Shown here piece after piece: positions 38,729-54,595 of a stretch of DNA of 54,691 bases. Numbering within the stretch: the first letter of the stretch is position 1; each line of letters opens with the position of its first letter. The stretch spans positions 1 through 54,691 of the forward strand of contig CALIKS010000004.1 of NCBI GenBank assembly GCA_938017985.1, given 5' to 3'. The notes beneath the pieces are model-generated. The model was not told where the DNA came from, made no database searches, and saw only the letters and a list, made by a program, of their open reading frames with translations. This DNA is from an uncultured archaeon (GTDB lineage Archaea; Thermoproteota; Nitrososphaeria_A; Caldarchaeales; Calditenuaceae). The position numbers were made by a program, and so were the translations under genes.

Positions 38729-41700
38729 CTACGGCGTAAGACATATGATTATTTTTTCATTATTGATTTTCCATTCCTTTACGTATCCAGCGTCAGGCTT
38801 TGGTGGCTCTCTTAAGAATGTAATCCTCGTCCGTGTCTCCTCTTCTATGTAGTCCGTCATTTGTCTAGTATACTCGCCTATTAATGGGTTGTCAAGATAT
38901 AGCATGCATTGGGCTTCCTGTGTAATTTCGAGTTTCAACTCCTTCCTCATTACCTGTATGCGTCTTATCAGTTCATTAGAAATTGATATTGCCTTTAGCC
39001 TCTCATCTTCCCGTAAATCTATGTATACCTTAGCGAACTTTCCTTCTCCCATTACCATAAATTCGGGTAGTTTTTCCGTAAACTTTACATCATTTTTTTC
39101 CAACTCGAATATCGATTTATCAGGCAAGATAAGCTCATATTTTCTACTGGATTCGAATGCTTCTGAGACTTCGCGAGGCTTTACATTTTTTAGAGCCTCT
39201 ACTACGAGTGGTAGACGTTTACCAGCCTTGGGGCCAAGCCTAGAGAGTACTGGCTCCACTTTTATTACTAATTCTGCAGGGGTCTTTGAGGGATCTAGTA
39301 TTTCGAGGTTAAAGCAATTAACTTGTCTCATCAAATAGTTCTTAAAAACCTCGCATGATGTTTTAGCCCTTGCCAAATTAGGAGAGATTATTACTCTTGA
39401 TACTGGCCATCTTAGTTTTCTCTTAGCACGTTGTCTGGCATTCAGCGATGCTGTGATCACGTCCTCAACGATTTGCATTGAATCTTCAAGCTCTGGGTCA
39501 ATTAATCTATCATCCGGTCTAGGCCAGCTGTTAAAATTAACGCTCTCAGGCTGGCTCTTAGACTTTATGACCTGATAAAGATACTCAGAAATATACGGTG
39601 CAAATGCTGAGAGCATGATTAAGTAACGCGTGAGGACATAATGCAATGCTGCGTAGCAAGCTAATTTTTGTGGCGTCCTCTCTTCTATCCAAAATCTTCT
39701 CCTTACAGCCCTGACATAGGTCCTACTCAGATCTTCGGATGCAAAACGTAAAACTGCTTTTGCTGCCTCATGAAATTCATACTTCTCAATACTATTGGTA
39801 AGATATCTAATGAGAGAGTTTATGCGTGACACTATCCATCTATCTTCAGGCTCAGCATAAGGAAGCATCGCCTCAAGCCCTTCACGCTCCGGGTCATACT
39901 TATCTAACTCGAAGTAAGTCTTAGCGAATGAAACGACGTTCCACAGTATGTTTAAGATAGACTCGACTTGTTTAATCTCGTCTGGGTCAAAGTTAATAGA
40001 GTCCCATGGCTGAGCCTTGGAGAGTATATAGAGTCTAAGATTGTCAACGCCCCATTTCTCAAAGGCCTCTGAAGCCCATACAACATTTCCACGACTCTTA
40101 GACATCTTTTTCCCATCCTTGTCTAGTACATGTCCTTGATTCAGCACAACCCTATACGGCGACTTTCCAAACAATAATGCAGACGTAAAGATCAATGTAT
40201 AAAACCAGCCACGCGTCTGGTCTATGGCTTCAGTAATAAAATCGTATGGAAATAGGCGCTCAAAGAGCTTCTTATCCGATAAATAATCAATACTTGCGAA
40301 ATGAGCCACGCCAGAATCAAGCCAGGTGTCTAAGACAAAGGGCTCTCGCTTCATTTCTCCACCACATTCTTTACACTTGAAAATCACTTGGTCTATCCAT
40401 GGTCTATGGAGCTTAATTACTGGTGGTTTAAACTCGGCCTGCATTAATTCTTCTTTTGATCCAACTATCTTAGTAGCTCCACATTTCTCGCAAATCCAAA
40501 CATTTAGAGGGGTTCCCCATATCTTGGTTCTAGATATGCACCAGTCCTCGGCATTCTCTAGCCATTCACCAAACCTGCTCTGACCGGCCCAAGCTGGATA
40601 CCACTTTACTTTTGAGTTCTCCTCAATCATTATTTTCTTAATCCTATCAACCTTTAGAAACCATTGTCTACTGGCAAGATATATCAAAGGTGTGCCGCAT
40701 CTCCAACAATGAGGATAATTATGTATAATTTTGTCTTCATGGAATAGAAGTCCCTTGCTTCTCAAAATGTCGAGTATTATTCTTGAAGCATCTTTGTGAT
40801 AGAGTTCTTTAAGGGCGCCTGCCTCAGAGGTGAAGTACCCTGTCTGGGTTATTGGGCAGAGGATTGGAAGACCGTGCCGACGGCCCAGCTCGAAGTCCTC
40901 AGGACCATGTCCAGGAGCAATGTGCACAAGTCCAGTACCATCCGTCATCGACACGAATTCTGCTGGAAGAACAGTGTGCGCAGGCTCAGTATGCGTAGAG
41001 TGAATTGGCACTTCTTCGCCAAGCGGATGAAGATATCTTAGTCCTACGAGTTCCTCGCCTGAAAATCTTTTAAGAATCCGATATTCTTTCTTGAGGGTAT
41101 GCATCACATTTTCGAGGAGTTTAGCCGCTATGATTATTTGCTGCCCCTCTACTAGTATCTCCAAGTACTCCTCGTCTGGATGAATAGCAACTGCTTCATT
41201 TGCTGGAAGAGTCCAGGGAGTCGTTGTCCAGACAAGTAGACTTCTCCCAGCATCATCCGCGAGTTTAAACTTTACGTATATTGAGTAGTCCTCAACTTCT
41301 TCGTATCCTTGGGCAAGCTCATGTGAGGATAGTGGTGTTTCGCAGCGTGGACATACGGGTACGACTTTGTAGCTTGTATAGAGGTCGCCTTCTTGGTATG
41401 CTTTTTTGAGGAGGTACCAGACGTGTTCCATGTATCTTTCCTTTCTGGTTTCATATGCGTTGTCATAGTCTAGCCATAGTGCGAGTCTTTCTGAGTCTTT
41501 TCTCCATTTGCTGATGTAGTAGTCTACTAGTTTGTTTGCCTCTTCGACGAATTTTTCTAGTCCAATCTTCTCCTCTATGTCTTTCTTCGTTATTTTTTGA
41601 AGTCCGAATTGTTCCATTAGTCTTTTCTCTACTTCTAGTTCTGTTGGGAGTCCTTGGCAGTCCCATCCTGCTCTTCTCCATACGTTCATTCCTCTTAGGG

Positions 41701-41914
41701 TCCTGTATCTTAGTACGAGGTCTTTGTATATTCGTCCACGGGCGTGTCCGATGTGCATGTAGCCGTTTACTGTTGGTGGTCCTTCGAGGAATGAGTAGAT
41801 TGGTCCGTTGCTGTTTAGTTGTAGGAATTTTTCCGGTATCTTGTTTGCTCGCCAGAATTTTTCTATTTCTTTCTCTACGTGTTGGTGGTCGTATGTTGGT
41901 GGCAGGGCGTACAT
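38729..41914 (-). CDS. ileS: Isoleucyl-tRNA synthetase
   Basis: A 1061-residue class I synthetase. Start MYALPPTYDHQHVEKEIEKF; the HIGH motif is YMHIGHARGR, the KMSKS motif GKKMSKSRGN, and the editing (CP1) domain is present with VWTTTPWTLPANEAV. A longer open frame runs to 42466 into the opposite-strand gene, but this part is a low-complexity shadow and is not translated. It lies divergent from the MTA phosphorylase gene, with an 87-93 base promoter gap. The 5' part is remarkably poor in T at third codon positions. Confidence 0.97.
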   Translation of the reverse strand: MYALPPTYDHQHVEKEIEKFWRANKIPEKFLQLNSNGPIYSFLEGPPTVNGYMHIGHARGRIYKDLVLRYRTLRGMNVWRRAGWDCQGLPTELEVEKRLMEQFGLQKITKKDIEEKIGLEKFVEEANKLVDYYISKWRKDSERLALWLDYDNAYETRKERYMEHVWYLLKKAYQEGDLYTSYKVVPVCPRCETPLSSHELAQGYEEVEDYSIYVKFKLADDAGRSLLVWTTTPWTLPANEAVAIHPDEEYLEILVEGQQIIIAAKLLENVMHTLKKEYRILKRFSGEELVGLRYLHPLGEEVPIHSTHTEPAHTVLPAEFVSMTDGTGLVHIAPGHGPEDFELGRRHGLPILCPITQTGYFTSEAGALKELYHKDASRIILDILRSKGLLFHEDKIIHNYPHCWRCGTPLIYLASRQWFLKVDRIKKIMIEENSKVKWYPAWAGQSRFGEWLENAEDWCISRTKIWGTPLNVWICEKCGATKIVGSKEELMQAEFKPPVIKLHRPWIDQVIFKCKECGGEMKREPFVLDTWLDSGVAHFASIDYLSDKKLFERLFPYDFITEAIDQTRGWFYTLIFTSALLFGKSPYRVVLNQGHVLDKDGKKMSKSRGNVVWASEAFEKWGVDNLRLYILSKAQPWDSINFDPDEIKQVESILNILWNVVSFAKTYFELDKYDPEREGLEAMLPYAEPEDRWIVSRINSLIRYLTNSIEKYEFHEAAKAVLRFASEDLSRTYVRAVRRRFWIEERTPQKLACYAALHYVLTRYLIMLSAFAPYISEYLYQVIKSKSQPESVNFNSWPRPDDRLIDPELEDSMQIVEDVITASLNARQRAKRKLRWPVSRVIISPNLARAKTSCEVFKNYLMRQVNCFNLEILDPSKTPAELVIKVEPVLSRLGPKAGKRLPLVVEALKNVKPREVSEAFESSRKYELILPDKSIFELEKNDVKFTEKLPEFMVMGEGKFAKVYIDLREDERLKAISISNELIRRIQVMRKELKLEITQEAQCMLYLDNPLIGEYTRQMTDYIEEETRTRITFLREPPKPDAGYVKEWKINNEKIIICLTP

Positions 41915-42007
41915 TTTTCTATTTTTCTTTTTTCGGTCTGCGTATTTTAGGATTATTTTTCCTATTGTCCGGCTGGCTAGAGGGTTAAATGTGGGGTTTG
42001 TTTGGTT

Positions 42008-42799
42008 ATGAGTATGGTTGTCGTGGGCATTATTGGTGGTTCGGGTGTTTATAGTGTTGAGCTGCTGAGCGGTGTGCGGCAGGAGAAGGTTTTTACGCCT
42101 TTTGGCTCTCCGAGTTCTTTGCTGAGTGTCGGTGAGTTTGGTGGTCGTAGGGTTGTTTTTCTTCCTCGTCATGGTGTTGGGCATTCTGTTCCGCCGCACA
42201 TGATTAATTATCGGGCCAATGTTTGGGCGCTTCGTGAGCTTGGTGTCGAACGTGTCTTGGCGCCTAGTGCTGTTGGTAGTCTTCGGGACGAGTTTAGGCC
42301 TGGTGATGTCGTGCTGCCTGACCAGTTTATTGATCGGACTTGGGGTAGGCCTAATACGTTCTTTGACGGTGGGCGTGTTGCTCATGTCTCTATGGCTGAC
42401 CCGTTCTGTCCCGAGTTGATGGACCTTGTGTATGATGTTGGTCTTGGTCTTGGATTGTCGATTCATCGCGGCGGTACCTATGTATGTATTCAGGGGCCGA
42501 GATTCTCGACGAGGGCCGAGTCGAGGATGTTCAGGATGTGGGGCGGGGACATTATTGGGATGACGCTCGTGCCTGAGGTGAGTCTCGCGAGGGAGGCTGG
42601 AATGTGTTACTTGACGATCGCGATGGTTACGGATTATGACTGCTGGAAGGAGGGCTGGAGAGTTACTGCCGAGGAAGTCGTGAAGACGATGGCGAGCAAT
42701 GTTGAGAAGGTCCAGAAGATTCTTACGAAGGTTATTCCGTTGATTCCTGAGAAGCGTGGCTGTAGGTGTGGCGAATACATAAATGAGGCTCTTCTCTGA
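42008..42799 (+). CDS. mtnP: S-methyl-5'-thioadenosine phosphorylase
   Basis: A 263-residue purine-phosphorylase-fold protein. GIIGGSGVYS and PRHGVGHSVPPHMINYRAN form the phosphate/substrate sites, and VCIQGPRFSTRAESRMFR plus TDYDCWKEGW are typical of MTAP. It splits methylthioadenosine to adenine and methylthioribose-1-phosphate for salvage after SAM use. ATG starts at 42008 or 42014 are possible, and a TTG at 42002 is also in frame. Codon use differs sharply from its neighbours: A-ending codons are almost absent and Arg is CGN/AGG. Confidence 0.93.
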   Translation: MSMVVVGIIGGSGVYSVELLSGVRQEKVFTPFGSPSSLLSVGEFGGRRVVFLPRHGVGHSVPPHMINYRANVWALRELGVERVLAPSAVGSLRDEFRPGDVVLPDQFIDRTWGRPNTFFDGGRVAHVSMADPFCPELMDLVYDVGLGLGLSIHRGGTYVCIQGPRFSTRAESRMFRMWGGDIIGMTLVPEVSLAREAGMCYLTIAMVTDYDCWKEGWRVTAEEVVKTMASNVEKVQKILTKVIPLIPEKRGCRCGEYINEALL

Positions 42800-43065: not shown

Positions 43066-44028
43066 TTATGGCAAAACGTGTGTTCCAGCCTTTCCGTCTA
43101 TTGCATCTATTAGCTGGTCGAGCTCTGCGATTATGGCTTCTTTTCCATTATTCTCGATAAACCTTATTGCGGCTAATACCTTTGGTAACATGCTTCCCTC
43201 AGCGAAATGTCCCTCCTCGACATATTGTTTAAGTTCTTCAGCGCGTATCTTCTCGATTTTCTTTTGGTCTTGCTTCCCAAAGTTGATATAGGCCGCATCT
43301 ATGTCGGTCAAGATAATGAATCTGTCAGCTCTAACTAGCGATGCGAGTCTCTCACCTGCCAAATCTTTGTCTATTACAGCGTCGACTCCCCTAATTCCTT
43401 CGTCAGTATCGATTACTGGTATACCGCCGCCTCCAGATGCTACAACTATGAATCCATTACTCACCAATGCTTTTATCGCATCTGCCTCGAGTATTTTTAT
43501 CGGGTTGGGCGATGGCACAACTCTTCTCCATCCTGATCTTGCCTTATCCTCCTTGAAGACATATTCTGGATGCTCCTGCTTTATCTTCTCAGCCTCTTCC
43601 CTTGTGTAGAACGGGCCGACTGGCTTCGTCGGATTCTTAAACGCTGGGTCTTTCTCGTCTACCAAGACTCTGGTAATTATGGTGATTACATTTTTATTTA
43701 TCGATCTTCTTCTTAGCTCGTTTCCTAGTGCTTGCTGAATCATGTATCCTATGAATCCCTGAGTCTCAGATCCGCAGACATCCATAGGGAGGGCAGGAAC
43801 CCTGTAGAGCTTCTCGCCAGCATCATGCCTGAGCAGGGTTGCACCCACCTGTGGGCCGTTCCCATGCGTTATGATAAGCCTATAGCCTCTCTCAACCAAG
43901 TCCGCTAATATCTTGGCAGTCTTCTTGACGTTTTCATATTGCTCTTCAAAAGTACCGCTCTCTCCTTTTCTTAAAAGGGCGTTTCCGCCTAGGGCAATGA
44001 CTATAAGTTCGCTGGGCCTTGTACTCAT
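43066..44028 (-). CDS. arcC: Carbamate kinase
   Basis: A 320-residue amino-acid-kinase-fold protein. ALGGNALL and THGNGPQVGATLLRHD form the phosphate site, then VASGGGGIPVI, VDAVIDKDLAGERLA and DIDAAYINFG follow, all typical of ArcC. In ureide or arginine catabolism it transfers phosphate from carbamoyl phosphate to ADP. It is divergent from the transcarbamylase at 44448. A TATA-like ATTTATAAAG sits about 26 bases before its ATG. The lack of an arginine deiminase gene here argues against the arginine pathway. Confidence 0.96.
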   Translation of the reverse strand: MSTRPSELIVIALGGNALLRKGESGTFEEQYENVKKTAKILADLVERGYRLIITHGNGPQVGATLLRHDAGEKLYRVPALPMDVCGSETQGFIGYMIQQALGNELRRRSINKNVITIITRVLVDEKDPAFKNPTKPVGPFYTREEAEKIKQEHPEYVFKEDKARSGWRRVVPSPNPIKILEADAIKALVSNGFIVVASGGGGIPVIDTDEGIRGVDAVIDKDLAGERLASLVRADRFIILTDIDAAYINFGKQDQKKIEKIRAEELKQYVEEGHFAEGSMLPKVLAAIRFIENNGKEAIIAELDQLIDAIDGKAGTHVLP

Positions 44029-44447
44029 AAGGATATTAAAACACTGCTTTATAAATAGATAAAGATTTTTAATCAGTTTGCAAATATATTTTTTACTATA
44101 TAATAATTATAATTTTTATGTTTGTAGAGGGCTCCTGCAGAGGAGCGTCGTAGGCATTATCTCCGTCTCGAGAAAATTAGTCCAAACGGGGTCTTAAAGT
44201 GTAGAAGGTTTTCATCAGTAATAAAAGAAACAGTTTGTAGGATGATGCAGTGTCCTAAAGATTCTCTTATTGCCTCTTTCCCAATACGTTCTGTTCGTAG
44301 CCAAGATGAATGCCTGCCACTAAATTACGTAAGGTACGTCATCTCCATCTTTGTTTTCAAAGGTTTATCATGATTTTTTAATGAACTTTATGAGATACTT
44401 TTTCATAAAAATTTATATATAGAAATTTCACTGATAATTCGATTGTC
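44029..44447. other. Divergent promoter region with a GC-richer island
   Basis: A 419-base gap between carbamate kinase and a transcarbamylase. Both edges are AT-rich with TATA-like boxes: near 44055 on the minus strand and ATTTATATAT, 44411-44420, on the plus strand. In between, 44118-44373 is clearly richer in GC. It holds a small perfect hairpin (GCTCCT-GCAG-AGGAGC, 44131-44146) and an 81-codon plus-strand frame after a stop at 44125 that has no start codon near its beginning. A regulatory RNA or a decayed gene is possible; I cannot decide. Confidence 0.5.
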
Positions 44448-45500
44448 ATGAGTCTTCCATCTTATGTAGGATCAATGCGTGGAAGGGACTTCATCAACAC
44501 TAATGATTTTACTCAGGAAGAGATTTCCGAGATAATTAAGGCGGCTATGGATCTGCGGGAAAAATTTAGGGCAGGTGTTCCGACGAACTATCTTCCAGGG
44601 AAGACGCTGTTCATGCTGTTCTATAACAGGTCGCTGAGGACTAGGAACTCCTTTGAGGCTGGGATGCATCAGCTCGGTGGTCACGCTCACTTCCTCAGCC
44701 CGCAGGATGTTTATACTCCCACTCTTCCTGAGGATATGATTCCATATCAGACGGAGGCTATTTCCGACGTAGCTCGTGTTCTCAGCAGGTATGGAAATGC
44801 CATTGCTATAAGGATCTACGGCGATGCTGCTAAGTGGTTTATAGGCAGGGGCAACAGGGTCATCTTAGAGTTCGCTAAGTGGAGCGATGTTCCTGTGCTG
44901 AACATGGAAGACGATATCTATCATCCATTTCAGGCGTTGGCCGACATGATGGCAATAATGCAAGTGGCTCCGAAGCCTAGGGGAAAGAAGTTCGTGGTCT
45001 CCTATGCCTATTCAGGTGGGCTTAAGCCGCTCGCAGTTCCTCAAAGCTGCGTCTTAATCGGTACACAGTTCGGAATGGACGTAGTCCTGGCCCACCCGCC
45101 TGGATTCGAGCTGGAAGACCACGTCATAAAGGCTGCAAAGGAGAACGCTGATAGATATGGTGGAAGCTTCACAATAGTTAACGACATGAAGGAAGCATTC
45201 AGAGATGCCGATTTTGTATATCCGAAGGCATGGTCTCCGAAGAGGTATTTCCCACCCTACAACTCGAAGGTGGATAAGGATGGAGCCGTCGAGTATCAGA
45301 ACAAGTTTAAGAACTGGATCTGCACGCCGGAGCTAATGGACCTAACGAACAGGGGAAAATACATGCACTGCGGGCCAGCCGATCGAGGCCAAGAAGTAGT
45401 CGATGAAGTCATAGACAATTCTAGCTACTCGCTCTACTTCGAGCAGGCTGAGAATAGACTACATGTACAGAAGGCCGTAATGAGCATGGTCATGGGCTAG
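44448..45500 (+). CDS. Carbamoyltransferase (YgeW-like, divergent from OTC/ATC)
   Basis: A 350-residue transcarbamylase. The carbamoyl-phosphate motif is SLRTR (62-66), the HPFQALADMMAI motif lies in the first domain, and the second domain ends with MHCGPADRGQEV, where ornithine carbamoyltransferase has HCLP. The specific ornithine motif is absent, so the amino-acid partner is different. It starts an operon with two PLP enzymes. In cluster context it probably works in the phosphorolytic direction, releasing carbamoyl phosphate from a carbamoyl-amino compound for the divergent carbamate kinase. Confidence 0.9.
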   Translation: MSLPSYVGSMRGRDFINTNDFTQEEISEIIKAAMDLREKFRAGVPTNYLPGKTLFMLFYNRSLRTRNSFEAGMHQLGGHAHFLSPQDVYTPTLPEDMIPYQTEAISDVARVLSRYGNAIAIRIYGDAAKWFIGRGNRVILEFAKWSDVPVLNMEDDIYHPFQALADMMAIMQVAPKPRGKKFVVSYAYSGGLKPLAVPQSCVLIGTQFGMDVVLAHPPGFELEDHVIKAAKENADRYGGSFTIVNDMKEAFRDADFVYPKAWSPKRYFPPYNSKVDKDGAVEYQNKFKNWICTPELMDLTNRGKYMHCGPADRGQEVVDEVIDNSSYSLYFEQAENRLHVQKAVMSMVMG

Positions 45501-45514
45501 AACGGTGTAGACGT

Positions 45515-46561
45515 TTGCCAAGAATCGTCGTCCCACCCGCCGCAAAATCGATTTTGGACACAATAGGAAACACACCTATAGTAAGACTCAATAACATATC
45601 GAGGGAAGAGGGATTAAAGAGTAATATCTGGTGCAAGCTTGAATATTTTAATCCCAGTGGAAGCCTCAAGGACAGGCCTTACCGCGAGATGATATTAAAC
45701 GCGATCAAGAGAGGCGACCTAAAGCCTGGAATGGAGATAATCGAGGTATCAACTGGAAACGCAGGAATCGCATGCACATTCATCGGGACACTGCTTGGAT
45801 ACAGGGTAACCATAGTCATGCCAGAGGGAATGAGCGAAGAGAGGAAAAAACTAATCAGAGGTCTAGGAGGAGAAATAATCTTCACGCCGGGAGGAGAGAG
45901 CGACGTAGACCTAAGCATGGAGAAGGCCAAGAAACTTCTTGAAGAGAATCCCGGTAAATACTGGATGCCAAATCAGTTTGATAATCTAGACAACCTAGCG
46001 GCCCACTACAAAACAACGGGACCCGAGATCTGGCGGCAACTGAAGGGAAGAATTGATGCATTCGTCGCTACTCAGGGGACTGGAGGAACGATAAGCGGGG
46101 CTGGGAGATACTTAAAAAAGATGAGGAAGAGCGTCAGGATTTACGCCGGAGAACCCACCGAGGCTCCATTGCTTGCCTATAGTCGATGGGGCTCTCATCG
46201 GATCGAGGGCATAGGTGACGGATTTGTCCCTAAAAACCTAGACCTGAGCATACTTAGTGGAATAATACTAGTATCCTCGGATGAGGCCATAGAGATGACG
46301 AAGAGACTGATAAGAGAGGAGGGAATATTCTGCGGAATCTCATCAGGAGCAAACGTCGTCATGGCGATAAAGCTCGCGAAGAAGTATCCAAGTCTCAAGA
46401 ACATCGTTACCATTATTAACGATAATGGATACAGATACTTCTCAACCGAGGTCTTCGATGTTAAGAAGGAGATCTATATACCTGAGCGGGAACACCCAAT
46501 GGACGAGTACACGAAAAAGCAGCTCGAGATCTATCAGCCTAGATGGGAGATAATCGAGTAG
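45515..46561 (+). CDS. Fold-type II PLP enzyme, cysteine-synthase-like
   Basis: A 348-residue protein with the PLP lysine Lys52 (SGSLKDRP), the substrate loop STGNAG (79-84) and the phosphate site GTGGTISG. It belongs to the O-acetylserine sulfhydrylase/cystathionine beta-synthase group by these motifs. Within this operon it may instead be a deaminating lyase such as a diaminopropionate or serine ammonia-lyase. The start is TTG at 45515, 15 bases after the transcarbamylase stop. Confidence 0.88.
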   Translation: MPRIVVPPAAKSILDTIGNTPIVRLNNISREEGLKSNIWCKLEYFNPSGSLKDRPYREMILNAIKRGDLKPGMEIIEVSTGNAGIACTFIGTLLGYRVTIVMPEGMSEERKKLIRGLGGEIIFTPGGESDVDLSMEKAKKLLEENPGKYWMPNQFDNLDNLAAHYKTTGPEIWRQLKGRIDAFVATQGTGGTISGAGRYLKKMRKSVRIYAGEPTEAPLLAYSRWGSHRIEGIGDGFVPKNLDLSILSGIILVSSDEAIEMTKRLIREEGIFCGISSGANVVMAIKLAKKYPSLKNIVTIINDNGYRYFSTEVFDVKKEIYIPEREHPMDEYTKKQLEIYQPRWEIIE

Positions 46562-46594
46562 CATTCTGGCCAGGCCTGAAATGGGTATTTATCC

Positions 46595-47848
46595 ATGACC
46601 GAGTTCTTCGTTGAGAAGATTATATGCTCCAGATGTGGTCGCGAATACTCGCCAGAGTCAAACCCATTAATGTGCACCAGCAGAGACTTGGGAAGACTAG
46701 ACTTCGTATACAACTACGCCGCAGTATCGGAGAGGCTGACAAGAAGCGAGCTCAAGAGAAGAGAGGTCAGAGGCGTCTGGAGATACTGGGAGCTCCTGCC
46801 AGTAAAGAAGGAATACGCCATTTCTCTCGGCGAGGGCGATACACCACTCATCAGGGCGAGGAGGCTGGCTGATAAACTAAGGCTCAATAATCTCTACCTA
46901 AAGGACGAGACGAGAAATCCATCCTTCTCCTTCAAGGACAGAGCGATGAGCGTAGGCGTGAGCAAGGCAGTCGAGATGGGCGTAGAGGTAGCAGTGACTG
47001 CGTCTAGCGGCAACGCAGCCGCCGCACTGGCGGCCTACTCGGCGAGAAGTGGATTAAGATGTGTCGCGTTTGTCCCTGAGGACGTTGCGGCTGGAAAAGT
47101 ATCGCAGCTCCTTCTTTATGGTGCGAGGGTTTTTAGGCTAAAACAGGTCGAGGAAGGAGTCGACCCCACCGTCCAGCTCATGATGCTTGCCCATGAGAGG
47201 CTCAACTGGTACACCTGCCCAAGCTTCGGGCCATTCAATCCATACCAAGTCGAGGGACCGAAGACGATGCTCTACGAGATCATGGAGCAACTAGATTGGA
47301 GGTCTCCTGACTTCATCTTCGTTCCGACAGGCTCTGGATGCCTAATCACGGGGCTATGGAAAGCATGCATGGACTTGAAGAACATTGGCCTCATGGAGAA
47401 TTATCCCAGACTCGTCTTGACTCAGCCGACTGGAAACATGCCGCTAGTCGATGCTCTTAGACGCGGCCTCTCCTTCTCCGAGATAAAGCCCACCGCGTAT
47501 CCTCAGTCTGTCGCTTCTGGGCTTCTCGACCCATATCCATGGGACGGAGACCTAGCGCTTGAGGGTGTTAGAAAGACGGGAGGAATAGGCGTGGCCGTCT
47601 CCGACGAGGAGATAATGAATGCCGTCAAGATGCTTGCCGGTTTTGAAGGAATATTCGCCGAACCTTCAGGGGCAGCGGGGCTCGCGGCGCTAGTAAAGCT
47701 TCTCGACGAGGGAGTGGTTTCTCCTAGCGATGAGGCAGTAGTTTTAGTGACTGGCTCAGGACTAAAGGAGCCGGAAAAAATCATGAAGCTTTATCCTACG
47801 ACTCCTCTTATAGAGCCTAGCTTAGACGAGGTCTTGAAGCATATTTAG
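46595..47848 (+). CDS. Threonine-synthase-like PLP enzyme
   Basis: A 417-residue fold-type II protein. The N-terminus has a cysteine cluster (Cys11, Cys14, Cys27), the PLP lysine is Lys114 (FSFKDRA), and ASSGNAAAAL and TGSGC are the substrate and phosphate loops. It looks like ThrC, which turns phosphohomoserine into threonine. The clustering with a transcarbamylase and carbamate kinase favours another role, for example deamination of a freed amino acid. It lies 33 bases after the previous gene and converges with the racemase. Confidence 0.85.
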   Translation: MTEFFVEKIICSRCGREYSPESNPLMCTSRDLGRLDFVYNYAAVSERLTRSELKRREVRGVWRYWELLPVKKEYAISLGEGDTPLIRARRLADKLRLNNLYLKDETRNPSFSFKDRAMSVGVSKAVEMGVEVAVTASSGNAAAALAAYSARSGLRCVAFVPEDVAAGKVSQLLLYGARVFRLKQVEEGVDPTVQLMMLAHERLNWYTCPSFGPFNPYQVEGPKTMLYEIMEQLDWRSPDFIFVPTGSGCLITGLWKACMDLKNIGLMENYPRLVLTQPTGNMPLVDALRRGLSFSEIKPTAYPQSVASGLLDPYPWDGDLALEGVRKTGGIGVAVSDEEIMNAVKMLAGFEGIFAEPSGAAGLAALVKLLDEGVVSPSDEAVVLVTGSGLKEPEKIMKLYPTTPLIEPSLDEVLKHI

Positions 47849-48553
47849 CTACCACTCGCTGTGGACGAGTCTACTGAATAGGCCTATCCTACTTATGTTT
47901 AGTCCCATCGAGAGAATACTCTCGGCAAGCTTTACACCAGCCTTAACGGGGTCTATGACTGGTAGTCTCATTTTTCTTGAAAGCTTCTCATCGTAGCCGG
48001 TTAGGCCGGCGCATCCCAGTATCAATACCTCGGCGCCCTTATTCCTCGCCTTTTCTCCTGCCTCTAGTAGTGGTCTAAGGACTTCTTCCTCACTCATCCT
48101 ATCAACATCGACTACTGATAGTTTCATCGACTCTATTGATGCGAGTCTCTTCTCTAATCCATATCTATAGATCATGTTTTCCATTAATGGTACTGCTTTC
48201 TCGGAGACGGCGAGTATTGAATACTTCCATCCGAGGGCGAGGGCCATCAGAATTGAGCTCTCACCTATTCCCAGCACTGGCACGTCGAGTATTTCTCTTA
48301 AAGCATACATGCCGGGATCATCAAAGCAAGCAATCACTACTGCGTCAATCTTTCCTAGGTTTGGGCGTATGATGTCCCTTATGACGTTGAGCGTAGATGT
48401 AGTCTCATCCATGAAAGACTCTATTGCCTCAGGACCAGTCTCGGGATTCCTCACAATTACCTCGACATCCTTTGATGCCGCCTGTCTTGCGCTTTTTTCA
48501 ATCATCGAAGTCATATGCTTCGAAGTATTCGGATTTACAACTAAAATTTTCAT
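47849..48553 (-). CDS. Asp/Glu/hydantoin racemase family protein
   Basis: A 234-residue protein starting MKILVVNPNTS, as in hydantoin racemases. The two catalytic cysteines are Cys76 (VVIACFDDPG) and Cys181 (ILGCAGL). Starting at 48553 rather than the upstream ATG gives this family-typical N-terminus and places a TATTTATAAA-like box in front. It probably epimerises the C5 carbon of a hydantoin-type substrate. It is divergent from the cyclic amidohydrolase across about 64 bases, so they may share control. Confidence 0.9.
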   Translation of the reverse strand: MKILVVNPNTSKHMTSMIEKSARQAASKDVEVIVRNPETGPEAIESFMDETTSTLNVIRDIIRPNLGKIDAVVIACFDDPGMYALREILDVPVLGIGESSILMALALGWKYSILAVSEKAVPLMENMIYRYGLEKRLASIESMKLSVVDVDRMSEEEVLRPLLEAGEKARNKGAEVLILGCAGLTGYDEKLSRKMRLPVIDPVKAGVKLAESILSMGLNISRIGLFSRLVHSEW

Positions 48554-48617
48554 ACCAAAAAATTTATAAATGCTGCAGATATAGTTTTTCAAAACGATCT
48601 AATTGGTGAAATAGTTT

Positions 48618-49961
48618 ATGAGTTTAGTTTACATAAAGAATGGAAATATCGTAACGAGTTCTGGCATAATTGAGGGTGGAAGCATCCTCATATCTAACGA
48701 GAAGATAGTGGCTATAGCTAAGGGCGAGATTCCGGCCCATGTAGATAAAATAATAGATGCAAGCTCCAAGCTGATTCTTCCAGGAGCCATAGACGTGCAT
48801 CCCCATATAGACGATCCAAGCTTCTTCGAGCGTAGAGAGGATTTCGAGACTGGGACGAGGTCTGCGATAATAGGAGGAGTTACCTCGATGGTGGAGATGC
48901 CTACTTGGAACCCAGTCTTAGAAAAATGCGTCATCGAGGAGAAGATAGATAGGGGGAAGAAGATGAGCTACATAGACTTTAAACTCCACGCGGGAAATGT
49001 ACGAGAGATCTTAAACGAATCAGTCGTTAATGAGCTTAAGAATCTTGGAGTCATATCCTACAAAACATTCACTTGTGAACCATACCTCTGTACTGATTAT
49101 GCTATCTATGAAAACTTTAGAAAATATGCTGATAGCGATATCATATTCATGTTTCACGCGGAGAACAATGAGATTTTGAATGGAGTTAAAAGGGAGTTCG
49201 ATGAAAAAAATATGAAGTCTGCGCGTTATCACCATCTAACTAGGCCCGCCATCGCAGAGGTGGAGGCCGTTAATAGGGTCCTTTTACTGGCTGAGAAGAC
49301 GAACGCAAAGATATACTTCGTCCACATCAGTCTAGGCGAATCTGTTAGACTGATTAAGGAAGCTAAAGCAAAAAATGTCAGGGTCAAGGTGGAGACATGC
49401 CCGCACTACTTGTACTTCACAGGTAAGGACATGGAGAGGCTAGGACCATACCTCAAAGTTAATCCACCAGTCAGGACCGAAGATGATAAGAACGCATTAA
49501 TCAATTACTTAAACACCGGCGTGATAGACATAGTCGCTAGCGATCATTACCCAACCTTTAGGGACGAGAGGGAACCTGGATGGGAAGATATGGATAAAGT
49601 AAGGTCAGGATTACCAGGAATAGGGACGCTTTACCAGTCAATTATCAATCTAATGCTGAGCAATGTGCTGAGACCTGAAGTAGTTGTAAAGACACTCTCA
49701 GAGAACCCAGCCAATGTCTTCAGAATCTCTGATAGGAAGGGTGGAGTGGCTGTTGGTAAGGATGCTGACCTAGTTATACTTGACCCTAAGAGGGAAGTTA
49801 AGGTTGAGCCTGAGAGGTTCTCGATCCATAGCGGCTGGACCCCCTTCGAGGGAAAAACCTTCAAGGGCTACATAGAGAAAGTCCTTCTAAGAGGAGAAGT
49901 AGTAGTAGAGGACTATGAGATTAAGACCAGAAAAACCGCGGAATATTTGGGCGTGGCTTAG
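48618..49961 (+). CDS. Cyclic amidohydrolase (hydantoinase/dihydropyrimidinase/allantoinase type)
   Basis: A 447-residue amidohydrolase. Binuclear metal site: His61 and His63 (DVHPHID), Lys149 (ISYKTF, probably carbamylated), His180 (FMFHAEN), His236 (FVHIS) and Asp309 (VASDHYP). It should open a cyclic ureide ring to a carbamoyl-amino acid, so it would feed the transcarbamylases. Allantoin, hydantoins or a dihydropyrimidine are all possible. It converges with the ECF transporter operon (3-base gap). Confidence 0.92.
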   Translation: MSLVYIKNGNIVTSSGIIEGGSILISNEKIVAIAKGEIPAHVDKIIDASSKLILPGAIDVHPHIDDPSFFERREDFETGTRSAIIGGVTSMVEMPTWNPVLEKCVIEEKIDRGKKMSYIDFKLHAGNVREILNESVVNELKNLGVISYKTFTCEPYLCTDYAIYENFRKYADSDIIFMFHAENNEILNGVKREFDEKNMKSARYHHLTRPAIAEVEAVNRVLLLAEKTNAKIYFVHISLGESVRLIKEAKAKNVRVKVETCPHYLYFTGKDMERLGPYLKVNPPVRTEDDKNALINYLNTGVIDIVASDHYPTFRDEREPGWEDMDKVRSGLPGIGTLYQSIINLMLSNVLRPEVVVKTLSENPANVFRISDRKGGVAVGKDADLVILDPKREVKVEPERFSIHSGWTPFEGKTFKGYIEKVLLRGEVVVEDYEIKTRKTAEYLGVA

Positions 49962-49964
49962 CAC

Positions 49965-51704
49965 TTACGACGGACTAATACTATTCATAAATTCATTAAC
50001 TGTTAAGATGTTCCTTGGCAAGCCGTAATTCTCTAGCGCCTGAGATAGAAGGGTTACTTGGGGAGGCTTAACGAAGGTCTTCTTGAGGGTCTCTGCGTTG
50101 CTGAGTACGTTCTTCGTTGGTCCATCTAGCAGAATCTTTCCCTCAGCCATTGCTATTGTCCTTCTAGCCCATCCAGCGACGATCCACATCTCATGTGTAA
50201 TAATTATAATTGTATGCCCCATCTCGTTTAACTTCTGTAGGAAGTTCATCACGTCTATGCTTTGAGGCGTGTCTTGGCCCGTAGTTGGCTCATCAACAAT
50301 GAGCACCTGGGGTCTCATAGCTAGGACCGATGCTATGGCGATTCTCTGTCTCATGCCCTTGCTCATTAAGAATGGATGTTCCTCTAAGATTTCTTCTGGG
50401 ACTCCTGTTATCCTCATGCTTTCCCTAATTCTCTGCTCTATTTCTTCTTCCTTGACGAGCTTAAATGATAGTAGATTCTTCAGACCGAACTCGAGCTCTT
50501 TCCTAATAGTATCATTGAAGATCTGATGGTCTGGATTCTGGAATACGTATCCCACCCTCGCTATAAGATTCGGCGTAGGAGTTACCTTGGTATCCATTCC
50601 GAAGACCTTCACTGAGCCAGAGGTAGGCTTATAGATTCCAGCCATAAGCTTTGAGAGCGTTGTTTTACCAGAACCATTCTGCCCGATCAAGGCAACGAAC
50701 TCGCCCTTCCTAATCTTGATGTCAACACCCCTCAAGGCAACGGTTCCATCTGGATAGACGAAATGCAAGTTCTCGACTTCTATCGCTGCCTCATCACTTA
50801 TCTGGGCGAGGGGCCGATAACTTTCCACGTCCATCCTATTCGGTTGCAACTTCCTCTCCCTGAATAATTTCACTAAAGCATCTACGGCTTCGTCTAACGT
50901 TAGGGTTATGTTTCCGAGAATGTTACGCTTCTTTAGGTATCCTGAAATAGCGCAGACATCTGGAACTCTGACACCATTCTCAATGAGAAAATCGGGGTCT
51001 GAGAAGAACTTCTCAGTCGGCTCATCGAGGAGTATCTCTCCATTCTTTAAGAGTATGAATCTATCCGCAATTTTCGCGAGCTCTTCTAAGTGATGCTCAA
51101 CGACGACTATCGTCTCGACTAATCTCCGACTCTTCATGGAGGTGATGATCTCCATAATTTCCTCCTTACCTATCGGGTCTAGCATTGAAGTAGGCTCGTC
51201 AAGAACCATGATCTTCGGATTCATGGATAGCGTAGCAGCCAACGCCGTCCTCTGCTTCTGTCCGCCTGAAAGCTCGACGGGGTCCTTCATTCTCATCTCC
51301 GAGAGACGCGTCACATCCAAAGCCCACGTCACTAATTTCCTTACCTCATCCGGTGGAAAGCCTAAGTTCTGAGGGCCGAAAGCCACTTCCTCATCAACTC
51401 TCGAGAGGAGGAACTGGGTCTCAGGGTCCTGGAAGGTCATGCCGACGAATGCGCAGAGTGCAGCTACATCTGAAGTTGCAACGTCTAGGCCTAGGACTTT
51501 GACGCTTCCCTTCATCACACCTCTCTGAGAATGGGGGATTAGTCCATTAAAGGCGGATATCAGCGATGATTTTCCTGAATCATTCGGGCCAGTTATCACT
51601 ACAAACTCTCCAGGATTTATCTTAAGATCTATGCCTCTTAGGACCCAGTCTTTAGAATACTCGTACCTCCACCATAGGTCCTCAATCTCAATCACGGGCT
51701 CCAC
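49965..51704 (-). CDS. ecfA: ECF transporter ATPase, fused EcfA-EcfA'
   Basis: A 579-residue fusion of two ABC ATPases. First half: Walker A GPNDSGKS, signature LSGGQ, Walker B IMVLDEPTS. Second half: Walker A GQNGSGKT, degenerate signature MSKGM, Walker B VLIVDEPTTG. The asymmetry is typical of ECF pairs in which one of the sites is less conserved. It ends the transporter operon with EcfT and an S-component. Confidence 0.94.
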   Translation of the reverse strand: MEPVIEIEDLWWRYEYSKDWVLRGIDLKINPGEFVVITGPNDSGKSSLISAFNGLIPHSQRGVMKGSVKVLGLDVATSDVAALCAFVGMTFQDPETQFLLSRVDEEVAFGPQNLGFPPDEVRKLVTWALDVTRLSEMRMKDPVELSGGQKQRTALAATLSMNPKIMVLDEPTSMLDPIGKEEIMEIITSMKSRRLVETIVVVEHHLEELAKIADRFILLKNGEILLDEPTEKFFSDPDFLIENGVRVPDVCAISGYLKKRNILGNITLTLDEAVDALVKLFRERKLQPNRMDVESYRPLAQISDEAAIEVENLHFVYPDGTVALRGVDIKIRKGEFVALIGQNGSGKTTLSKLMAGIYKPTSGSVKVFGMDTKVTPTPNLIARVGYVFQNPDHQIFNDTIRKELEFGLKNLLSFKLVKEEEIEQRIRESMRITGVPEEILEEHPFLMSKGMRQRIAIASVLAMRPQVLIVDEPTTGQDTPQSIDVMNFLQKLNEMGHTIIIITHEMWIVAGWARRTIAMAEGKILLDGPTKNVLSNAETLKKTFVKPPQVTLLSQALENYGLPRNILTVNEFMNSISPS

Positions 51705-51720
51705 GTCGATATCACCTAGA

Positions 51721-52590
51721 CTACATAAATGGATTACTTAGTAATCCGTACAGCCTAGCAATTATTAAGCCTACAAATACTATAACGAGCATGGCTATTA
51801 TCACAGTGTCCTTTTTTGAGTATCTCCAATAATATCTGCCGACGTAGGTTTCTTCAAGCTTCGCCCTCTCGAGGAACTTTACCTTAAGAGGAGCCTTAAA
51901 CGCTCTGGCCTCCATTGTTATTCCCGCGTCTATGGCCTTCTTAATCGTGATGGCTACTAGTGGAATTAGATAGTATCCAAAAACGAAGGGCCTCCTCCAG
52001 AGAGGCTGCGACTTAATGTCCAGTCCCCTAGCCTTCTGCGCGTCTTGAATCGTGTTGAAGTCCGAGTCGAACATCCCTACGAACCTGAAAGCCATCGTGA
52101 GATACGTCCTCGCAACATAAGATATCTTAAGCTTCTCGAAGGCGCTCATCAAGTCTGAAGTCGTAGTTATCGAGAGCCATAGAAGCATCGCGCTAACCAG
52201 CGCGAACATCCTAACATAAACCATGACGCCGAACCCTAGCGCCTGGCTATAAACTTCAACGGGGCCTATCGTGGCTATTACTGTCGGAGACGGCCCAGCG
52301 ACAGACCTTCCAAAGAATATAACCGAGACAAATATGAAGAGGGCCAGCGTCATAAGGACCTTAAAGTATTTCTCAACATGCATAAGCGTAGCCTTGAAGA
52401 CCCTCATCAGAATTATATTAAAGAAACCGAATGCCGCATTATAGATTGGATTATCTATAATGATTGGATAAGCGTTAAAGAATAATAGGATAAAAATTTT
52501 AGTGATAGGGCTCATCTTATTGGCAATTGACGTCGCGGCAACGTATGAAAAAAAAGTTCTATATCTTGGTATTACTTGCTGAGTAGCCAC
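51721..52590 (-). CDS. ecfT: ECF transporter transmembrane subunit EcfT
   Basis: A 289-residue CbiQ/EcfT-type membrane protein with about five helices. The cytosolic coupling helices include IQDAQKARGLDIKSQPLW (the A-R-G motif that contacts EcfA) and a second ITMEARAFKAP (E-A-R-A-F) motif. It lies 16 bases before ecfA and 4 bases after the S-component. It forms the scaffold of the energising module. Confidence 0.94.
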   Translation of the reverse strand: MATQQVIPRYRTFFSYVAATSIANKMSPITKIFILLFFNAYPIIIDNPIYNAAFGFFNIILMRVFKATLMHVEKYFKVLMTLALFIFVSVIFFGRSVAGPSPTVIATIGPVEVYSQALGFGVMVYVRMFALVSAMLLWLSITTTSDLMSAFEKLKISYVARTYLTMAFRFVGMFDSDFNTIQDAQKARGLDIKSQPLWRRPFVFGYYLIPLVAITIKKAIDAGITMEARAFKAPLKVKFLERAKLEETYVGRYYWRYSKKDTVIIAMLVIVFVGLIIARLYGLLSNPFM

Positions 52591-52594
52591 CTAT

Positions 52595-53182
52595 TTACCA
52601 CCAATCAGGGAAGACGTAGACCCTTGTTCTCTTCACGAAGGGAGTAGCGATCTTGAGTATCAGGCTTCCAAAGACTATTGCTGGCCATGTATTGCCGATG
52701 AACCAGCCTGCCCAGAACAGCGGCTGTGCCTCCCAAGTAAATAGTCCCCATAGGACAAAAGCAGTAGTTCCAAGAGTCGCCCCAATTGCATTCTGCAAGA
52801 TACAACCTATCAGAATCCACGCGAGCCAGTCCTTCCTAGTCTTCAGCTCAGGATTCAACTTGAATCTCCTGAAGACCCAAGCCACAGTCCATGATTGGAA
52901 GAAGTTTGCGGGGATTAGGGTTGCCGCCACATACATGGGAATTGCCTCTCCTATTGCGTCAGAGATAATTGGGAAGAGGAACGCAACGATGACTCCCCAC
53001 ATGCCGAACCATATTCCACCTATAGCCTGTAGAGCCATCGCGGGCCAGAACCCTGAGACGTAGCCACCTATCGGCAACGACATGCTGCCATACGCTCCAA
53101 CAACAATACAGATACCGGTCCAAGCCGCTAAGATGCTTCCCATAGTCGCGCCGGTTCTTTTTGGACGAACTACTTCACTCAT
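52595..53182 (-). CDS. ECF transporter S-component, substrate unknown
   Basis: A 195-residue integral membrane protein with about 5-6 helices, in the first position of the T-A transporter operon, so it is the substrate-binding S-component. It does not carry a family signature I recognise for biotin, riboflavin, thiamine or cobalt. Gene context suggests a cyclic ureide, hydantoin or purine breakdown product. Aromatic-rich loops (WFGMWG, YVFPDWW) may form the pocket. Its Shine-Dalgarno (GAGGTG) overlaps the stop of the small upstream gene. Confidence 0.8.
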   Translation of the reverse strand: MSEVVRPKRTGATMGSILAAWTGICIVVGAYGSMSLPIGGYVSGFWPAMALQAIGGIWFGMWGVIVAFLFPIISDAIGEAIPMYVAATLIPANFFQSWTVAWVFRRFKLNPELKTRKDWLAWILIGCILQNAIGATLGTTAFVLWGLFTWEAQPLFWAGWFIGNTWPAIVFGSLILKIATPFVKRTRVYVFPDWW

Positions 53183-53194
53183 GTTTTAATCACC

Positions 53195-53317
53195 TCAAAA
53201 TAATTTTCCGTAGTACAAGAATATCAATAGTATGCCGACTATCAGAATTATTATTGATATTGCGAGAAGCGCCGCATTGCTGAGCCCACTCTTCTTTTTT
53301 TTATTTTCTACCATCAT
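53195..53317 (-). CDS. 40-residue single-helix membrane peptide at the head of the ECF operon
   Basis: A short minus-strand ORF: a lysine-rich start (MMVENKKKKSGLSN), one transmembrane helix (residues about 14-35) and a short basic end. Its stop TGA is part of the TGAGGTG Shine-Dalgarno of the S-component gene, 12 bases before that start codon, so the pair must be translationally coupled if expressed. It may be an accessory subunit of the transporter. Not matched to a known family. Confidence 0.65.
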   Translation of the reverse strand: MMVENKKKKSGLSNAALLAISIIILIVGILLIFLYYGKLF

Positions 53318-53435
53318 GACGCTTCGAAAAAAATAGAATTAGGTAATATTTAAATATTACTGAGGTATATATAAAAATTATAATTAAAAACTAAAACTTT
53401 GTTTTAATTTATTTCTTAATTTTTGTAAACGAAGG

Positions 53436-54473
53436 TTATTTATAGAGTTGTTCACTCATGGTTACTGCCATGACCGCTGACTTAACGTAAAGTCCGTTCT
53501 CAGCTTGTTCATAAATTACGGAGCGTGGACCATCCATTACTTCGTCCGTCGCTTCTTGACCCCGTAAAACAGGAAGCACGTGAGTTACTATTCCCTTCTT
53601 ATCCATTAGGTCTACGAGTTCTTGGGTCAGGATCCAGTTCCTATATTTGTTATGGAGCTGTATCTCTTTATCGACTCCGAATTTTGAGGCTCCTACTTTT
53701 AGGAGCTCCCAGCTGGCCCAGCTTCTCGGAAAGACTACATGGGCACCATTTATGGCGGCCTTAAGATCCGTGGTCTCTTCGAAGCTTCCACCGCTCTGCT
53801 TAGCGTTTTCTTTCGCTGTATTGGCTATCTCTGGGTCAATATTAAACTCCGGTGGACGTGCTACTACGACATCCATTCCGAACCTCGTCATGATGAGTGC
53901 CTCTTCCTGAATACTGCATAGCCCTCTTAGCTTTGAGGCATATCCCCACATGATCACGTACTTTTTTCCCTTTACCTCTCCTAGTTTTTCGCGTACTGTC
54001 ATGAGGTCTTGCATGCCTTGGGTTGGATGAAACGTGCAGCAGGCCATATTAATCACTGGGATATCAGCGTGTCTAGCGTATTCCTCAACTGTGGCCCTTC
54101 CAAGTCCATACTTATAATCTATGGCGTCATCCAAGCATCTAATTCCAATTCCATGTCCATATTTCTCATACATCTTGGCGACGTCCTTGACCGCCTCTCC
54201 GAAGCCGACCCTAAGAGTCGAGACATCTATGAACGTTGAATGGCCCCCGAGCATACTCGCGCCAGACTCGAATGCTGCCCTAGTCCTAGTTGACGGGGCA
54301 TAAAATATGGCGAAGAAGCTTTTCCCCTCAAGAAGCTTCGGTAAAAGCTCCTTATTACGGTACTTCACCTTAATCTCCCCTGCCAACTTTAGTGTCGCTT
54401 CTATCTCCTCGATACTCCAGTCCTGGCTAGATATCAGGTCACGACCGTAGAGATTGACTCCTAAACTAACCAT
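53436..54473 (-). CDS. Second divergent carbamoyltransferase
   Basis: A 345-residue transcarbamylase with STRTR (61-65), FHPTQGMQDLM, and a final HVLPVLRGQEATDEV. It resembles the enzyme at 44448 across the whole length but differs in the substrate-side motif (HVLP versus HCGP). The ATG at 54473 was chosen because a TATA-like box (TCTTATAAATAAG, near 54505) lies at leaderless spacing; a TTG at 54491 would add six residues. It may use a second carbamoyl-amino compound of the same pathway. Confidence 0.88.
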   Translation of the reverse strand: MVSLGVNLYGRDLISSQDWSIEEIEATLKLAGEIKVKYRNKELLPKLLEGKSFFAIFYAPSTRTRAAFESGASMLGGHSTFIDVSTLRVGFGEAVKDVAKMYEKYGHGIGIRCLDDAIDYKYGLGRATVEEYARHADIPVINMACCTFHPTQGMQDLMTVREKLGEVKGKKYVIMWGYASKLRGLCSIQEEALIMTRFGMDVVVARPPEFNIDPEIANTAKENAKQSGGSFEETTDLKAAINGAHVVFPRSWASWELLKVGASKFGVDKEIQLHNKYRNWILTQELVDLMDKKGIVTHVLPVLRGQEATDEVMDGPRSVIYEQAENGLYVKSAVMAVTMSEQLYK

Positions 54474-54595
54474 GCCTAGATAAAAACTCAATCTTATTTA
54501 TAAGATTTTAAATCAAACATTCACTACAACTTCTTCACAAGACGTTCTGAATCAAGTATAAAAGCGATTGAGAGGTTTTGCATTTTTACGCGTAT

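Follow-up and report, generated by a model that had tools for sequence, protein, structure and literature searches.

What does an archaeon do with a carbamate kinase, two carbamoyltransferases, two fold-type II pyridoxal phosphate (PLP) enzymes, a racemase, a cyclic amidohydrolase and a transporter, all encoded side by side? The question is raised by a stretch of 54,691 nucleotides (the window) that spans positions 1-54691 on a 133 kb contig from the metagenome-assembled genome (MAG) of an uncultured archaeon of the Calditenuaceae. The MAG measures 1.63 Mb and is 83% complete. Protein matches place it with the Caldarchaeales: the first carbamoyltransferase, OTC1, is 81-86% identical to MAG proteins from Benthortus, Pelearchaeum, Caldarchaeum and Calditenuaceae. 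On balance, we favor the reading that the reductive uric-acid pathway has an archaeal variant and that this cluster encodes its downstream half, which would lead from a hydantoin (most probably 5-ureidomethyl-hydantoin or a closely related compound) to pyruvate and ATP. The ten genes at 43066-54491 are all intact open reading frames with clear family matches, and the gene inventory given in a preliminary description of this DNA thus stands:

43066..44028, minus strand: CK, a catabolic carbamate kinase of the ArcC/YqeA type (TIGR00746 arcC, 447 bits, cut-off 358)
44448..45500, plus strand: OTC1, a knotted carbamoyltransferase with YgeW-like signatures (PF02729 and PF00185)
45515..46561, plus strand: a CysK-like fold-type II PLP enzyme (TIGR01136 and TIGR01139, above cut-off)
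46595..47848, plus strand: a ThrC-like fold-type II PLP enzyme in a clade of cluster-linked proteins, with PLP lysine K114
47849..48592, minus strand: an Asp/Glu/hydantoin racemase of the hydantoin/allantoin type (PF01177), with Met14 (48553) as the probable start
48618..49961, plus strand: HYD, a hydantoinase-like cyclic amidohydrolase (family models, metal ligands)
49965..51704, minus strand: ECF-A, two fused energy-coupling-factor (ECF) ATPases (TIGR04520, 459 bits; TIGR04521, 453 bits)
51721..52590, minus strand: ECF-T, a CbiQ-like transmembrane component (PF02361)
52595..53182, minus strand: a probable ECF S-component, a small membrane protein recognized by the fold of its AlphaFold model, with no Pfam family
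53436..54491, minus strand: OTC2, a second knotted carbamoyltransferase from a separate clade (PF02729 and PF00185)

OTC1 and the CysK-like and ThrC-like genes are read in the same direction and the ECF genes and OTC2 in the opposite one; CK, the racemase and HYD stand singly, between these runs or next to them.

In bacteria, HyuA opens ureidomethyl-hydantoin to 2,3-diureidopropionate, and YgeW, YgeY and YgeX carry the product on to pyruvate, the energy being gained as carbamoyl phosphate (Li 2025, PMC12507026; the pathway chemistry is also treated in PMC12990295). In the archaeal variant HYD would open the ring. Using phosphate, OTC1 and OTC2 would then each take off one ureido group, OTC1 phosphorolysing the first one of 2,3-diureidopropionate and OTC2 the second in the place of YgeY, to leave 2,3-diaminopropionate and two carbamoyl phosphates. 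From carbamoyl phosphate and ADP, CK would make up to two ATP along with ammonia and CO2, and the ThrC-like enzyme, perhaps together with the CysK-like one, would form pyruvate by eliminating ammonia from diaminopropionate. Every substrate, the direction in which the carbamoyltransferases work and the double phosphorolysis are predicted from sequence, as are import and racemization. In relatives the full route would begin at purines, by way of adenine deaminase, a xanthine-dehydrogenase-type enzyme, an F420- or PreA-type reductase and SsnA.

The observations behind this reading are gene content, conserved synteny, co-occurrence, sequence signatures and intact catalytic motifs. Our scan of genome contigs for OTC1 gave 79 loci, and a lineage table was drawn up from 60 loci with lengths of 9 kb or more. 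A core of OTC1, OTC2, CK and a ThrC-like gene, often with a CysK-like gene, is found in Caldarchaeales, Nitrososphaerales, Desulfurococcales/Sulfolobales and several deep bacterial phyla. Among the 60 loci it is present in most of those from Caldarchaeales and Thermoproteota and also in Caldisericota (as a minimal GntR-OTC1-OTC2-CK-ThrC block), Elusimicrobiota, Acidobacteriota and Cloacimonadota; the Bipolaricaulota loci have OTC2 and CK with OTC1. Across the Caldarchaeales clusters CK is 68-72% identical. The core recurs in the same neighborhood in dozens of genomes from several phyla, which is more than chance would produce, and its genes do not have the separate fixed contexts that the preliminary description had considered. 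Its usual neighbors are xanthine dehydrogenase (XDH) subunits, SsnA, a ring reductase (of the F420-dependent LLM or the PreA/YgfK type), adenine deaminase and hydantoinases. Of the 16 archaeal loci, Asgard archaea apart, that also have OTC2, 15 have XDH, SsnA or AdeD no further than about 10 kb away. Complete sets, sometimes split over two loci, occur in genomes G001, G014, G021 and G039 (L175-L178, L181, L182 and L187), with a hydantoinase in the sets of G001 and G039 and none in the stretch read for G014 and G021. The Nitrososphaerales locus L063 holds most of the set. In genome G040, which is without XDH, two aldehyde-ferredoxin-oxidoreductase (AOR)-type proteins and PreA adjoin SsnA-like and ThrC genes (L022:7183-19530), and a tungsten-type enzyme might perform the reductive step there. 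In the Thorarchaeota loci L073-L088 the OTC1-like genes are 52-55% identical, and other cluster genes are missing nearby in most.

The two carbamoyltransferases both retain the carbamoyl-phosphate motifs and a knotted-type loop. OTC1 has S62LRTR, H159PFQ, VYPKAW from 257 and MHCGPAD from 306, and OTC2 has S67TRTR, H155PTQ, VFPRSW from 253 and THVLPV from 303. Relatives of OTC1 share with E. coli YgeW the motifs WAYSPS..KP.(A/S)VPQ, VYPKSW and HCLPAD, the last of which reads HCGPAD in Caldarchaeales; OTC2 is marked by RSWGSVQ/RGLCSIQ-type loops, VFPRSWAS and THVLPV. In the phylogeny OTC1 and YgeW fall on one branch (support 98/95) and OTC2 forms one clade (100/99, a single Anaerolinea protein excepted), the exact placement being unsure owing to the long branches of YgeW and N-acetylornithine carbamoyltransferase. 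Judged by its sequence, OTC2 is a second clade of knotted carbamoyltransferases; its nearest relative, 73% identical, is in G040. True YgeW orthologs were looked for and not found. No YgeY ortholog was found in the 11 genomes searched, where the best matches, at 28-31%, were to generic M20 peptidases, none of them in the cluster. The comparison suggests that OTC2 takes over the step of YgeY. Two Cloacimonadota loci (L114:2707-13090 and L116:2920-18280) encode SsnA, YgfK, YgeY, CK and three carbamoyltransferases (YgeW-like, OTC1 and OTC2).

The cluster ThrC-like proteins form a clade apart from the threonine synthases of the same genomes, and a biosynthetic role for the ThrC-like enzyme is disfavored by a stronger thrC on contig C20 of the MAG. 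The CysK-like gene is conserved in the Caldarchaeales and Nitrososphaerales clusters. YgeX is not the best match for any archaeal cluster protein examined, and the ThrC-like and CysK-like enzymes are at most 24% identical to it. This suggests that the ThrC-like enzyme is a putative 2,3-diaminopropionate ammonia-lyase that takes the step of YgeX; the CysK-like enzyme is an uncertain candidate for beta-elimination or beta-replacement on diaminopropionate or albizziin. The link that the preliminary description drew to the bacterial ygeW/ygeX/hyuA/yqeA cluster for purine breakdown is borne out by the synteny in relatives and the YgeW signatures of OTC1, and ATP formation through carbamoyl phosphate is supported as well. 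Equivalence to a ygeX-type cluster needed correction: in place of YgeX and YgeY orthologs the cluster has a second carbamoyltransferase and ThrC/CysK-like enzymes.

HYD keeps its metal ligands (H61, H63, K149, H180, H236 and D309), and its best match in the PDB is the L-hydantoinase 1GKR. In the tree, whose deeper branches are weak, it falls outside the HyuA clade and groups (94% SH-aLRT) with enzymes of the Desulfurococcales clusters and with the HYD of G040, encoded there between OTC1 and OTC2. HYD scores above the cut-off of TIGR00857 pyrC_multi. A dihydroorotase, as which it might also have been read, is unlikely and was rejected: HYD has HPHID in the position of the HxHxR motif of dihydroorotase, and the contig of the window carries its own pyrC, with HVHCR, about 0.5 kb away from pyrB.

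SsnA co-occurs with OTC1. Among the 61 genomes searched for both, a strong SsnA ortholog is present in 14 of the 16 with OTC1 and in none of the 45 without it (Fisher p 5e-12, uncorrected for kinship). Families f1 and f3 have both genes in some genera and neither in others, and the link is therefore not one shared event only. The two OTC1 genomes without SsnA are G036 and the MAG of the window. In this MAG, where absences are judged by family and protein searches, we found no SsnA ortholog (best match 29%) and no homologue of the XDH molybdenum subunit, of which the other OTC1 genomes, G040 excepted, have 1-17; its ring reductase candidates are a pyrD-like dihydroorotate dehydrogenase only, plus seven LLM proteins whose relation to the cluster type is ambiguous. 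The MAG thus appears to hold only the downstream half of the pathway. On its contig C15 (L174:6227-13375) a stretch of 7 kb brings together genes for an LLM protein, a ThrC-like protein and an AOR; this site was considered as an upstream locus and set aside, with no SsnA or hydantoinase found there.

With an ECF importer and a racemase but neither SsnA nor XDH in its MAG, the archaeon probably imports and racemizes the hydantoin. The best PDB matches of the racemase are the hydantoin racemase 3qvj and then the allantoin racemase 5lfd, and both family cysteines (C89 and C194) are present. The MAG has racemase paralogues, one pair of which adjoins ABC-transporter genes and an S-Me-THD family protein. 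As a conserved partner the racemase was not found in the clusters of relatives, and neither the racemase nor the ECF genes belong to the conserved core (0 of the 60 related loci). The earlier remark that the combination is unusual in an archaeon is wrong for the core, which is common in Caldarchaeales and Desulfurococcales; the putative import and racemization are peculiar to this genome within the set compared.

The A, T and S components of the ECF transporter lie together, A and T recognized by family models and S, as a probable assignment, by the fold of its model. The latter (pLDDT 79) resembles BioY, ThiT and RibU (TM ~0.6, Foldseek probability 0.96-1.0) with E-values of only 0.06-0.3. 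Homologues of the S-component adjoin ECF-T/A genes. In G014, G017 and G029 (Caldarchaeum-type) they also adjoin XdhA-like genes, accompanied in two of the three by SsnA-like and F420-dependent LLM genes, and in other genomes they adjoin methylamine-type methyltransferase genes. In G012 (L195:9020-14383) a corrinoid protein and an MtmB-family methyltransferase adjoin ECF genes related to those of the window. An attempt to read the substrate of the transporter from context was given up, as the XdhA/SsnA-like neighbors of the Caldarchaeum-type genomes and the MtmB-type genes of G012 give a mixed signal. As a tentative proposal, which we hold with less confidence than the pathway assignment, the archaeon may scavenge hydantoin from purine-degrading neighbors by ECF import and racemization, and gain two ATP per molecule through its paired knotted carbamoyltransferases.

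Several points weigh against assigning the cluster to the reductive uric-acid pathway. Both carbamoyltransferases fail the NCBI YgeW model TIGR03316 (153 bits for OTC1 and 141 for OTC2, cut-off 500), and a diaminopropionate-lyase model is absent among the families listed for either PLP enzyme. Thorarchaeota hold OTC1 without other cluster genes nearby. The clusters of Cloacimonadota and Terriglobia have YgeY (44-53% identical) besides OTC1 and OTC2, therefore OTC2 need not replace YgeY and the replacement is not strict; Cloacimonadota also have a third, YgeW-like carbamoyltransferase. The MAG is incomplete, and its upstream genes could be missing through lack of assembly. Finally, phosphorolysis of a ureido group is thermodynamically unfavorable, as remarked for YgeW (PMC12507026).

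The alternative that survives best, though we consider it unlikely, is the breakdown of pyrimidines by the reductive route, or of hydantoins of amino acids in general, in which HYD would be a dihydropyrimidinase or hydantoinase and a carbamoyltransferase would phosphorolyse N-carbamoyl-beta-alanine or an N-carbamoyl amino acid. In its favor, the models for allantoinase, hydantoinase and dihydropyrimidinase give HYD much the same score, the racemase is similar to hydantoin racemases, and the Desulfurococcales clusters contain PreA-like reductases. However, SsnA, XDH and adenine deaminase in the clusters of relatives point to purines, beta-alanine needs neither two carbamoyltransferases nor a lyase of the diamino-acid type, and PreA was not found in the MAG beyond the pyrD-like gene. 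A little more doubtful is the idea that the full reductive uric-acid pathway operates here too, with SsnA, XDH and reductase merely lost from an incomplete assembly. The completeness of 83%, the F420-type LLM proteins of the MAG and the presence of SsnA and XDH in the closest genus that has OTC1 (g2) agree with it, whereas the complete lack of XDH molybdenum-subunit homologues does not, and the ECF importer and racemase, missing from full-pathway clusters, suggest a different entry point. Use of allantoin is improbable. It would involve an allantoin racemase, an allantoinase and carbamoyltransferases that phosphorolyse products of the allantoate or ureidoglycolate type, in keeping with the second-best structural match of the racemase and with the allantoinase models, which give HYD its highest scores (312 and 302 bits, short of their cut-offs). 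Yet enzymes for allantoate or ureidoglycolate were not recognized in this cluster or those of relatives, HYD groups with cluster hydantoinases and not with AllB (in a tree with weak deeper branches), and the diamino-acid lyase would be left without a role. That OTC1 and OTC2 serve an alternative arginine or citrulline metabolism by forming or cleaving compounds of the citrulline type is highly improbable despite their similarity to ornithine and acetylornithine carbamoyltransferases, as the MAG has a separate ArgF-like ornithine carbamoyltransferase (contig C35) and PyrB, both proteins have the knotted-type loop with K/R replacing the SMG loop of ornithine carbamoyltransferase, and in relatives both lie in purine clusters; no arginine deiminase was seen in the cluster or the loci read, no genome-wide search having been made.

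The near flank of the cluster is housekeeping in character, with a frame resembling isoleucyl-tRNA synthetase (38729-42466, as judged from the sequence) and an S-methyl-5'-thioadenosine phosphorylase gene (42002-42799) that adjoins the cluster and is probably housekeeping as well, yet releases adenine. Scanning the window for Rfam families, promoters and repeats yielded nothing of use.

By these data, Caldarchaeales have a complete and Nitrososphaerales a near-complete gene complement for the reductive uric-acid pathway, described in 2025 from bacteria; Desulfurococcales have related sets. The variant with a second carbamoyltransferase could double the ATP yield. The racemase and the second carbamoyltransferase clade, linked here, also bear on the order and stereochemistry of ureido cleavage, a question raised in a commentary on the pathway. 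Carbamoyl phosphate is heat-labile in thermophiles, so that two such steps in one catabolic route prompt the question of channeling. The commentary describes the reductive uric-acid pathway as restricted to anaerobic bacteria, Li 2025 (PMC12507026) does not mention archaea, and we found no archaeal report of it in the open-access literature.

Among known systems, the ureidoglycine carbamoyltransferase of Rubrobacter (PMC4016543) and the oxamate carbamoyltransferase AllFGH (PMC11326118) resemble the proposed route in breaking down ureides via carbamoyl phosphate and carbamate kinase; going by their descriptions, the former differs in being a pseudo-ATCase and the latter in being encoded by three genes outside the OTC family. 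N-acetylornithine carbamoyltransferase and other knotted enzymes share the knot-type loop and the K/R motif (VYPKAW and VFPRSW here, VYAKSW in N-acetylornithine carbamoyltransferase), but they fall outside the clade of OTC1, OTC2 and YgeW and have a different genetic context. The closest likeness is to the cluster for reductive uric-acid (yanthine) degradation of E. coli and C. difficile (xdhD, ygfK/uacX, ssnA, hyuA, ygeW/uacY, ygeY, ygeX and yqeA; PMC12507026), with which the window shares a carbamoyltransferase with YgeW signatures and a carbamate kinase and would share hydantoin opening and a PLP lyase, and the clusters of its relatives also share XDH, SsnA and a reductase (of the F420 type as in Chloroflexota or the PreA type as in UacX). 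Unlike the bacterial cluster, the one described here is archaeal, a second carbamoyltransferase clade apparently replaces YgeY and ThrC/CysK-like enzymes YgeX, and the genome of the window appears to lack the upstream half and has an added ECF importer and racemase.

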